NCBI RefSeq assembly: GCF_018143015.1
Contig: NC_054741.1
Span: forward strand, 12,523,736-12,587,735
Length of the DNA stretch: 64,000 nt
From: Lytechinus variegatus
Taxonomy: Eukaryota; Echinodermata; Echinoidea; Temnopleuroida; Toxopneustidae
Direction of reading: 5' to 3'
Part shown: piece by piece, positions 27,980 to 45,900 of the stretch
How the letters are laid out: every line of letters begins with the position of its first letter
Position numbering within the stretch: position 1 is the stretch's first letter
Notes under the pieces: model-generated
Database searches by the model: none
Seen by the model: the letters and a program-made list of their open reading frames with translations, nothing else
What the model was told of the DNA's origin: nothing
Translations under genes and position numbers: made by a program

Positions 27980-30900
27980 GTAAGGTGCTACTGCTAACCT
28001 AAGTCCTAACTCCTTGTCCTACACTTTTCTGTTTCAGAAAAGTGTAGGACAAGGAGTTTTGCCTGAAGATTGGAAGAGTGCTAATGAGTAATGTGACCCC
28101 TGTATTCAAAAAGGGTAGCAAATCAGAAGGTAGGAACTGTACAGGCCTGTAAGTCTGACATGTGTTATTTGTAAGCATAGGCGGATCCAGGGGGGGGGCC
28201 CCCCTATTGGCGGAGCAAAAAAAGAAAAAAAGGGGAAAAGGAAGGAAAAAAGGGAAAAGAGAGGAGAAAAGAAGGAAGGCAAGCATAAGAGGAGGAAGAT
28301 GAGTGAATAAAATAAGACAAGGGGAAGACTTGGAAATTGTTTTTTTTTTATCTTTCATGTCGGGATATAAAATTTTGCTCGCGCTTTGCGCTCGCATTGC
28401 CTTTTAGGTGATATCTTGCTCAATATGGATCTTAAAATATCAAATTCTGAAGTCAATATACAAAACATATTTCAGCTTGGAAATTGAACGTTCATTATTT
28501 TGTTTTATTTACAAATTGATTTTTTAAAAGTGTAAAAATTTCTGTTTTATGGTCTGAATATTAACAATTTCTGCTTGCGCTGCGCGCTCGCAAAATTTGA
28601 TTTGTCAGGTACCTATTATTTTCCTGTATTCCATGAAGTTCTCAAAATATCCCTATTTAGGTCAGATTGTCAAAACGTATCAGCTAGCGCTGCACGCTTG
28701 CATTTTGATTAGTGAGTTATGTATATCTCAATATTAATTCTAAAACAAACTACTTAAAATCACCATTTGATGACAATTAATCATAAATTTCTGCTTGTGA
28801 TTTGCGCTCACATTGATAGATTTTAAACTCATGCATCTTAGGCATAATTACAAAAGTGCTTTAAATGTCAAATTTTCAGGCCATAATATTAATAGATTTT
28901 GCGCTCTCATGCTTAGGAAGAGAAATAGGAAGATAGTCATCATTTTCTTATGATGACATAATGTCCTTATAGAATATCCCGGTCCTATGTCAAAACTCAA
29001 AGTAACAATAATTGAAAATATCAGCTCTGTTTTAACTGTGATCCTTCTTCACCTCACAATTTTTCCACAAACTGCTTGCAATACAGAGCTTAAAGTGACC
29101 CCTTTTCAGATGTGAATATCATATATTTTTAGCTCGCGCTCCGTGCTCGCTTTATTGATTTTCATGGTAAAAAAAAAATTAGAATACCCAAATTCTAGGT
29201 CGATATCTCAAACACACGTTTATTCAGATACGCAGCTTGTTCTCCATTTAAATAATTATCCAGTTTCAGATAGCAATATAAAAAATTGTCTTCTCGCGCT
29301 TTGTGCTCGCATTATTAATGTATGAAAATTTCCAATAGCTTAACCTTTTCATGATTTACAAAACATGAATAGAGTGTCAAGAATTTTTCAGCTCGCGCTT
29401 TGCGCTCGCATCAATAATGTTCAGTTTTTGTCTTATATATCCTTTCCACGATTACAAAAAGTGCTTAAAATTTCCATTATTCAGGTAGAAATGTCAAAAA
29501 TTTTCAGCTCGCGCTCGCAATATTTGAATGTTGAAATAATATGTAACGTCTTAATGGCTAAGTTCAAGCAGTCCATAACAAATACGTTTTCGATCAGCTC
29601 AAAACGGCGGCGTCAACATCAAATCTTAACCTGAGGTTAAGTTTTTGAAATGACATCATAACTTAGAAAGTATATGGACCTAGTTAATAAAACTTGGCCA
29701 TAAGGTTAATCAAGTATTACTGAACATCCTAGTAGAGTTTCATGTCACATGACCAAGGTCAAAGGTCATTTAGGGTCAATGAACTTAGACCATGTTGGAG
29801 GATTCAACATCGAAATCTTAACCTGAGGTTAAGTTTTTGAAATGTCATCATAACTTAGAAAATATATGGACCTAGATCATGAAACTTGGACATAAGGTTA
29901 ATCAAGTATCACTGAACATCCTGCATGAGTTTCACATCACATGACCAAGGTCAAAGGTCATTTAGGGTCAATGAACTTTGGCCGAATTGGGGATATCTGT
30001 TGAATTCCCATCATAACTTTGAAAGTTTATGGATCTGATTCATGAAACTTGGACATAATAGTAATCAAGCATCACTGAAAATTTTGTGCACGTTTCAGGT
30101 CTCATGATTAAGGTCAAAGGTCAATTAGGGTCAATGAACTTTGGCCGAATCGGGGGTATCTGTTGAATTACCATCATAACTTTGAAAGTTTATTGGTCTA
30201 GTTCATTAAACTTGGACATTAGAGTAATCAAGTATCACTGAACATCCTGTTTGAGTTTCAGGTCACATGACCAAGGTCAAAGGTCAATGAACTTTGGCCG
30301 AATTGGGTGTATCTGTTGAATTACCATCATAACTTTGAAAGTTTATGGATCTGATTCATGAAACTTGTACATAAGAGTAATCAAGTATCACTGAACATCC
30401 TGTTCGAGTTTCAGGTCACATGATCAAGGTCAAAGGTCATGTAAGGTCAATGAACTTTGGCCATGTTGGGTTATTTTGTTGAATAACCATCATATCTCTG
30501 TAAGTTTATTGGTCTAGTTCATAAAAAGTGGACATAAGAGTAACCATGTATCACTGAACATCTTGTGCGAGTTAGAGTAGTATTCAAAGTCAACACTGCT
30601 GCTATATTGAACCGCGTGATGCAGGTGAGACGGCCAGAGGCATTCCACTTGTTAAAAATATGTAACGTCTTCATGGCTAACTGCAAGCAAGTCCTTAACA
30701 GTACCTTTTCCATCAGTTCATTTCTGCTCGCGCTTCACGTTCATAATAATTATTCACTTGCATACACATCTTTTTTCAGGATAGCCCAGAATGTTCAAAA
30801 CTTTTAGAAAAAAGTACATAAGATTCCCCCCCAAAATAACTTGCGACTTCTTAGTAAACTACAAGCTCTTGGAGTCAAAGGGAAAATGCATGCATGGATT

Positions 30901-42900: not shown

Positions 42901-45900
42901 GACAAAGAACATATCTTGAAAGTTTCAGCCCATTCCATGATTTGGAATAGGATTTAATTGAAAGACAAAAACACACAGATATTTTAATTTGATCGGGTGA
43001 CCCGATAAAGTTAAATTTCCATGTAAAATCGCAAAATTTATCATGTAAAACACATTTTCATTTCATATCCTCCACATCATAACTGTTATAGGGCATATCC
43101 ATTCATATTAGCTAGCAATGAATTGGAATAGTGATAGGTGCATTTTGGTGGATTTACCAAAACTATACACAAGCTTTAAACTTGGATATTAGAGTAATCA
43201 AGTATCACTGAACATCCTGTGCGCGTTTCAGGTCACATGACCAAGGTCAAAGGTCAATGAACGTTGGCCGAATTGGGTGTATCTGTTGAATTACCATCAT
43301 AACTTTGAAAGTTTATGGATCTGATTCATGAAACTTGTACATAAGAGTAATCAAGTATCACTGAACATCCCGTTTGAGTTTCAGGTCACATGATCAAGGT
43401 CAAAGGTCATTTAGGGTCAATGAACTTTGGCCAAATCGGGGTATCTGTTGAATTACCATCATAACTTTGAAAGTTTATTGGTCTAGTTCGTTAAACTTGG
43501 ACATTAGAGTAATCAAGTATCACTGAACATCCTGTGCGCGTTTCAGGTCACATGACCAAGGTCAAAGGTCAATGAACTTTGGCCGAATTGGGTGTATCTG
43601 TTGAATAACCATCATATCTCTGTAAGTTTATTGGTCTAGTTCATAAAAAGTGGACATAAGAGTAACCATGTATCACTGAACATCTTGTGCAAGTTAGAGT
43701 AGTATTCAAAGTCAGCACTGCTGCTATATTGAACTGCGTGATGCAGGTGAGACGGCCAGAGGCATTCCACTTGTTCAATTATACTCTGTTGGGAAAAGAG
43801 AATTCATATATTCATCATTGCTTTTTTTGGAATGATTTCACCACATTATTTATCCAAAATATCAAGTGAGACCTCATTTAAAATCAATATGATGATTAGA
43901 ATATAACTATTATGTTTATTTCTTACAGCTTCTGGGCGTTACTCCCCTATCCCTCTACCTCCTGTCCAAGTTGCCCCTCCCAGTCCCGACATGGAGGCAT
44001 TGACCCATGTGGCCAAGGCCACTCCGTTTCCTGATGACACTGATGACGATGAGGAAGACGATGACCAGTGGCTGACGACATCGGACATGACCTACGAGTC
44101 TGACAGCTCCGAGGAGTTCATCATGCCAGAGCGTGAGGTAGAGGATCTTATGATGGAATCTACCACAGATCTTGATGATGAGCTTTCCAGGCTGCTGGCA
44201 GCAAAGCTCCCTGATAGCTACAAGAGGAGAGGTGAGTTGAAGGCAGAACTGCTGCCAATTTGAAAATTGCAATGTTACCCATAATCTATACCAGCATGCC
44301 TAAATAATTTCTCTGGGCAAAGGCCATTCCATCTGTTAGTTAATTCTAACTTGTTGGCTAGACTTCACCATCCCTTTTCAAAAGTCCCGGGCCTCGTCTT
44401 ACAAAGTTGCATTTGCGTTCATCAATTGTAACTATGGAAAGCCAGCAACGTTAACATAGAAAAGGCATGTTTGTTCAAAATGGTTTCTAGATCTGATAAA
44501 GTTTCTTGACCATTCAGTATTTTCCTTTTTGTTTACAAAATGACAAAGTGCAAATTTCCTGATTTCCTGAAGAAAAAAATTGCAATAATGGATTTCCATT
44601 TATAGTGGATGATGATCAATTACATATCTTTGTTAGATGGGACCCAGATCAGCCTGAATGTAATCTTTGCCAATAATTCCCACTCTTGAAAAGGTAACGT
44701 TACTTCAGCTCAATCTATAAAAAGTTTTAAAGATTAATACATACTTATTCAATTTCATTTGACATCTTGTCCCCAAAAAAGAAAACAAGAGGATATTACA
44801 ATGATGAAATACATCATTATGCTACTTTCAAGCACTCAGATTCACTCTGTGGAGTGTTTAAGATGCTAATTGCCATTATTTACCTAGGTTTAGCTAAGTT
44901 GCCGTACTAGCACCCCAGGGCTTAAATTAATCAAAGTCCATCAATTTTAATCGCTGTGAATTCCTTTTTGATTGGTCTTTTTTACCTTGGAAGTTCATTG
45001 TGCCATTTTTTTCACTTGGGCTGGAATATAGAAATGTGCCTTTAAGAAAAATGACATTCCTCTTTAATATGTAGATTTCAGTATGGCCTTTGCCCTCAAA
45101 ATGAATTTATATCTCTATCATCTTTGCAGTGAATGATGGCAAACCTGTGCGCTACACCAGATCCTTCCTGCTTGACCTGTGGAAATCTCCCTATTCCAAA
45201 GAGATGCCGTCAGTCCTGAAGCATACCATCTCCCATAGTGATGTGTCCTTTATCATCCAGGTCAGTCTCGCATATAGTGGATATTGACTTCTATAAATAA
45301 CTCCTCGATCACACAAAATACAAGCTATTGATTTAGAGAAGAATCAATATATTGATACTTCTGCATTTTGCAAATCTGAAGTGAAGAGTTACATTAGTTT
45401 GTTGATATAAAGGAGAGAGGAATGATATAATTTACACGTGCTGTTACTGAAGAAAATGTGACTCATTCCATGAACATTTCAAAGAGAATTTTATAATTGT
45501 AATTTGATTATTTTATTGAGTAAACTACTGCTGATGCACATAAATATGTTGCTTTGCCAAATGAGTATCCTTTTGATTTCATATTATTCAGAGGCATGCC
45601 TTTTCTGATCCTGGAGTGCTGTTTCAGCAAGGATCAATGGATGATATTTATCTGAGGCCATCTCACCTCAAGGCAGACCCTAACTCAAGAGTTAGATCAT
45701 CCAGTGGCAGATCTTCCAGTGGCAGAAGTACCCCAGACCCCAAAGCTTCTGATGGAGATGCTACCAGGATGAGGGCCTTGAGCTGGCCCCAGGGAGCGGC
45801 AGCAGCAGGGAAACCACAACCAGATGTAGAAGGAGGAGGAGAGAGACTGGTCCAAGGCAGGGAAGGAGCTAGGCAAATCCGAATAGGGGCAAGGATTGAC

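Follow-up and report, generated by a model that had tools for sequence, protein, structure and literature searches.

We analysed a 64-kb window of the sea urchin Lytechinus variegatus (64,000 nucleotides of contig NC_054741.1; "the window" refers to this whole stretch), in which four insertions of one mobile element, E1 to E4, were found and on which all results given here are based. Two of them, E1 and E2, carry tandem arrays whose units contain a nuclear-receptor-like motif, the direct repeat of two half-sites spaced by one base (DR1). Since splice-like signals fit exon ends at about 27979 and 41055, an exon at about 39499-39644 and an exon start at about 43929, E1 and E2 probably lie in introns. 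The units of the arrays share ancestry, and the older copies E3 and E4 have no intact DR1 in any of their three units. It is highly probable, in our view, that array growth and transposition of one ancestral site, within the tandem repeats of an element built like a HINE (a Helentron derivative), explain the twelve perfect DR1s of the window.

DR1 sites and the element copies that carry them

A pattern scan of the window recovered the perfect DR1, AGGTCAAAGGTCA, twelve times, always on the + strand and exactly where a first-pass annotation of this stretch had placed twelve sites. The same scan added one site with a single mismatch.

29756, 29948, 30111, 30274, 30427 (span 29756..30439), + strand: the five perfect DR1s of E1
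41817, 42009, 42201, 42556, 43244, 43397, 43559 (span 41817..43571), + strand: the seven perfect DR1s of E2
42393, + strand: one-mismatch DR1 of E2, AGGTCTAAGGTCA, in the 13th young unit

The distance from one DR1 to the next is 192, 163, 162 or 153 bp, and 688 bp where a nested insert intervenes. The unit length of 192 bp, first ascribed to each unit, is thus one of several. All 12 RGKTCA-type DR1s of the window and all 10 of its DR4s (half-sites spaced by four bases) lie inside E1 and E2, and beyond the four elements the range from DR0 to DR6 is represented by one DR0 and one DR3 only. When up to two mismatches are allowed, the window holds 19 DR1 matches, whereas 100 shuffles gave 1.96 on average and never more than 6.

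As the motif was selected after inspection, one may think of a chance run of matches to a short motif. Yet 19 matches were reached in none of the 100 window shuffles, which refutes chance for the twelve copies, and one 192-bp unit, dinucleotide-shuffled 20000 times and scanned on both strands, produced the exact DR1 once; we therefore regard this explanation as extremely improbable. The same unit shuffles gave any RGKTCA-type DR1 19 times and any repeat from DR0 to DR5 187 times. Even for a single DR1, an origin by pure chance appears unlikely, judged by these counts. The site may first have arisen by luck or by a 7-bp duplication; in the latter case just one half-site would be needed beforehand.

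The surroundings of the DR1 carry further receptor-like motifs. A third half-site, which had been reported for many units, is located 4 bp past the second in 10 of the 13 young units (GGGTCA in nine, AGGTCA in one) and forms a DR4 with it. It is absent from the other three through a 10-bp gap between GGTCA repeats, which leaves the DR1 intact. Since the long form is also present in the older copies, this gap is likely a slippage deletion. Directly ahead of the DR1, where GGTCACATGACC had been described, an exact match is found in 3 of the 13 young units and a match with one mismatch in 7 more. On the reverse strand, the DR1-like sequence NGGCCAAAGTTCA was found eight times in E1 and E2 and once in E4. 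Two near-copies of GGTCACATGACC with one mismatch each, 18 bp apart, were also observed on the - strand at 1071-1100, outside all element copies.

The four element copies and their parts are as follows; E3 and E4, which the first-pass annotation does not mention, were detected with a profile of 13 DR1-centred stretches that was run over the window.

29605..30653, + strand: E1, HINE-plan element with the 5' end missing and the 3' end present; five full units, each with a perfect DR1, and one partial unit
30621-30631: 3' subterminal inverted repeat (subTIR) of E1, which has the 3' arm only
41610..43775, + strand: E2, complete HINE-plan element; eight units that carry a DR1 (perfect in seven, with one mismatch in the eighth) and partial units
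41614..41624, + strand: 5' subTIR of E2, GTCTCACCTGC, followed by the inverted repeat GTGAGAC and a GGC microsatellite
43743..43753, - strand: 3' subTIR of E2, GCAGGTGAGAC, the exact reverse complement of its 5' subTIR
51178..51726, + strand: E3, older complete copy with two units, whose DR1s have two and one mismatches
51180-51190 and 51694-51704: subTIRs of E3, GTCTCGCCTGC and its reverse complement GCAGGCGAGAC
about 10757..11010, - strand: E4, decayed copy with one unit and no intact DR1
42655..43175: nested insert of 521 bp that splits one E2 unit; terminal inverted repeats (27-nt arms including TTAA, 93%) and TTAA on both sides

The subTIR pairs of E2 and of E3 are exact over 11 bp each, and a search of the ends of E4 found no subTIR. 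The subTIR of E1 equals that of E2, while E3 differs from E2 at one of the 11 positions, and on both arms. As this one-base difference is matched at both ends, it suggests that pairing of the subTIRs matters, as far as two elements can indicate. With up to one mismatch, the window has the subTIR pattern at two more places, 11497 and 48856, neither of them in any of the four copies. Next to its 5' subTIR, E2 has the inverted repeat GTCTCAC...GTGAGAC, whose DNA hairpin stands out from shuffled sequence (z = -3.96); the corresponding repeat of E3 is weaker, a comparison made with no shuffle control. Over the last 60 bp, taken in windows that extend one base beyond the element, identity is 58/60 between E1 and E2, 54/60 between E1 and E3, and 53/60 between E2 and E3. 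The flanks of the element are T-rich. Uninterrupted units of the type split by the nested insert are found at 43480-43510 and 30195-30235, as compared by eye.

Since two 60-bp stretches on either side of E1 (29542-29601 and 30661-30720) are 83.6% identical, E1 may lie inside an older repeated sequence. Just downstream of E1, an open frame of 363 aa at 30808-31899 on the + strand contains a reverse-transcriptase fragment, with a match to PF00078 (E = 1.1e-5) that stays below the curated cut-off. Elsewhere in the window, the trinucleotide TAG is repeated about 52 times at 50441-50595, and TTCGTTATTCCGAAGG-like units form a tandem array at 4155-4370, with periods that include 16, 26 and 42 bp.

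The host gene had been annotated as an eIF4E-binding gene. This was not confirmed, as 13 distinct open frames or joins gave no significant match in Pfam, apart from the reverse-transcriptase fragment, and two queries gave none in PDB, these queries being selected frames, with most of the 160 listed open frames left out. For the host gene, Pfam offered at best DUF4120 (E = 0.052) and LeuA_dimer (E = 0.04), neither of which reached the curated cut-off; the best E values in PDB were 0.82 and 0.61.

Element plan and comparable known elements

Judged by their arrangement, the arrays form the tandemly repeated centre of a non-autonomous element that follows the HINE plan. The earlier designation as transposon arrays is therefore right and can be made more precise. 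The closest description is that of Cg_HINE from the Pacific oyster, a group of 11 non-autonomous Helentrons with central satellite-like repeats (PMC7492417). The shared features are a 5' subTIR of some 11 bp near a complementary inverted repeat, a microsatellite and a 3' subTIR; an array of units of about 160 bp in a single orientation relative to the ends; and T-rich flanks, with copies in non-coding parts of genes (PMC7492417). In contrast to Cg_HINE, the urchin element has a 192-bp unit type besides the 163-bp one, and the likeness described here is one of plan.

The same applies to DINE-1 and the HINEs of Drosophila and a mite, with which the element shares subTIRs, central repeats, a T-rich target and a 5' inverted repeat like that of DINE-1 (PMC4067079); here too the comparison is one of plan. 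A 3' palindrome, in contrast, is not clearly supported by folding in the urchin element. A 3' hairpin is predicted alike in E1, E2 and E3 (z = -0.61, -0.49 and -0.66, respectively, relative to shuffles), but with z between -0.49 and -0.66 its folding barely exceeds that of the shuffles, which weighs against the HINE assignment. HINEs are placed in the same family when they have at least 11 bp of identical subTIRs (PMC4067079). In these terms, E1 and E2 have identical subTIRs, and E3 is off by one position in 11 on both arms.

The bivalve satellite family BIV160/Cg170 resembles the arrays in its units of about 160 bp, its association with Helitron-like elements and its conserved segments (PMC5139131). 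The reverse primer of BIV160, the only stretch compared, had no match in the window at up to three mismatches. Pattern scans of viral and prokaryotic contig collections for relatives of the element yielded none, save for one 18-base pattern, and because of the make-up of these collections their silence says little. That pattern hit four viral contigs, all with the same local sequence, which were rejected as a chance match because only unit positions 110-137 agree (E = 0.0058 in a four-locus search).

Descent of the units and rate of change at the DR1

In a tree of the units, those of E1 group with the E2 units of their own type, and E2 has extra copies of some types. Units paired by type between E1 and E2 show 1-8 differences over 111-149 positions (seven pairings). 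Outside the DR1, the units of E3 diverge by 20-23% from the young consensus and that of E4 by 32.5%. Because E1 and E2 units pair by type and diverge little compared with E3 and E4, we conclude that the twelve sites derive from one or a few ancestral units, which multiplied in arrays and were then transposed. Recent spread, one of two explanations offered by the first-pass annotation, is borne out by these small pair differences and by older copies that lack intact DR1s.

We consider the following course of events the most likely. An ancestral unit would have carried a run of GGTCA half-sites that made up a perfect DR1 and a DR4, joined in some unit types by the reverse-strand DR1-like sequence. 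The array would have expanded and contracted through unit duplication, and the element, presumably mobilised by rolling-circle replication with the help of an autonomous Helentron partner, would have arrived in this region four times, spread over a long time. All 12 perfect sites would be inherited from a recent master, so that their perfection is mainly due to shared descent. Once inserted, the DR1 sites would decay like the remaining sequence, and host receptors would not usually make use of them.

The other explanation on offer was selection, based on the impression that the DR1 core persists in units that have otherwise diverged. For the comparison of rates, alignment columns with a letter in no fewer than 12 of the 16 units were retained, 149 in all. 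The 10-bp gap of three units was shifted to an equivalent place, which keeps the second DR1 half-site in the DR1 columns. The limits of a 55-bp block that contains the DR1, and the representatives of eight lineages, were picked after viewing the alignment.

Several results count against a reading by descent and decay. Parsimony over the 16 units assigns the 13 DR1 columns 5 steps, a rate of 0.38 per column, compared with 1.07 in the remaining 136 columns. The lowest score (permutation p = 0.015) is reached by 3 of 137 windows: the DR1, the DR1 shifted by one base, and one other. Among 148 circular shifts, 2 score as low as the DR1 for the 16 units and 8 for the young units. No 13-mer is shared exactly by more of the young units than the DR1 and its one-base shift, at 12 of 13 each. 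In the old copies, 4 of 36 DR1 positions are mismatched versus 95 of 382 elsewhere (p = 0.067, three gapped E4 columns omitted). Some of the differences between E1/E2 pairs, used below, may predate insertion, and the block around the DR1 may indeed change more slowly. On the other hand, the DR1 had been chosen for looking conserved, and the 16-unit parsimony test is therefore partly circular. A pooled Fisher test of the 13 young units (p = 4e-8) counts related units as independent and was discounted as evidence.

The further tests do not single out the DR1. Within the 55-bp block it takes 5 steps in 13 columns versus 26 in 42 for the rest when all units are used (permutation p = 0.25), and 1 in 13 versus 12 in 42 for the young units (p = 0.14). 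With one unit per lineage, the DR1 has 5 extra states, and 25 of 137 windows are as low or lower. The half-site columns show 0.43 extra states and the remaining columns of the block 0.36 (p = 0.78, small sample). Five E1/E2 pairs differ at 1 of 65 positions in the DR1 versus 21 of 641 elsewhere (p = 0.71). The comparison of the DR1 with the rest of the unit, proposed along with the original observation and carried out here on the copies in the window, thus gives a divided answer: the impression of a preserved core holds for the 16 units but much less so when each lineage counts once. Selection on the DR1 is favoured by the 16-unit parsimony but not by the within-block, per-lineage, half-site and E1/E2-pair tests, and was rejected. 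The alignment rather points to a block of about 55 bp that changes slowly, with a DR1 inside it that is not clearly special; constraint after insertion is not visible, in a comparison of little power.

The block itself may have been kept for the benefit of the element, e.g., because a germ-line-active host protein, a nuclear receptor or another, binds it, or for recombination between units, with intronic copies then decaying. It is the lowest of 95 windows of 55 columns, with 0.40 extra states per column versus 0.90 outside, and the 16-unit tree places 31 steps in its 55 columns versus 120 in the other 94. This is in agreement with two conserved segments reported for related bivalve satellites (PMC5139131, PMC7492417). 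However, the block limits are post hoc, the 16 units come from four insertions only, and the half-site columns are no slower than other block columns (p = 0.78), which argues against receptor half-sites as the cause. We hold this explanation to be possible but tentative. A stronger version takes the block as a nuclear-receptor platform (DR1, DR4 and some reverse DR1-like sites) that is kept as binding opens chromatin, so that insertions would deliver clusters of sites and some would become hormone- or lipid-responsive enhancers. This version appears very unlikely.

Precedents and meaning for the host genome

The dispersal of protein-binding motifs by mobile repeats is a known phenomenon. Alu repeats, which are short interspersed elements (SINEs), provide one example. 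In the cited accounts, these repeats disperse DR2 and HNF4 sites, with binding demonstrated by chromatin immunoprecipitation (ChIP; PMC1785376, PMC3252374); they are alike in multiplying nuclear-receptor motifs, but binding was seen there, whereas here we have the sequence motif alone. Helitron-type dispersal is described for PHE1 sites by RC/Helitrons in Arabidopsis (PMC6914339) and for MSL sites by the ISX helitron in Drosophila miranda (PMC4384637). Function was shown in these two cases, again in contrast to the motif found here. In ISX, a 10-bp deletion created the motif (PMC4384637), whereas in the urchin element a 10-bp gap removes a half-site from three units. Within the open-licence PMC literature, no paper was found that joins Helentron with nuclear receptor, or satellite DNA, nuclear receptor, binding site and Helitron. 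Because of the Alu, RC/Helitron and ISX precedents, a Helentron-type element with receptor-like sites is, by analogy, a new instance of a known phenomenon.

Binding of receptors at the DR1s is possible. Co-option would go further, with a host nuclear receptor that binds these copies as intronic enhancers of this gene. The numerous perfect DR1s between likely exons and the spread of motifs with proven binding by other elements (PMC3252374, PMC1785376, PMC6914339, PMC4384637) are in line with this idea, but the comparison of E1 and E2 shows no constraint, and E3 and E4 in the same window are without an intact DR1. We consider co-option very improbable, and descent from a recent master, followed by decay, remains the preferred reading.

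If the element is abundant in the genome, it supplies many ready clusters of DR1 and DR4, and receptor ChIP or motif scans in this species must allow for it. It would then offer a natural test of whether satellite-like arrays in Helentrons seed receptor-bound enhancers. The present case mainly illustrates how repeats can mimic selected regulatory DNA.

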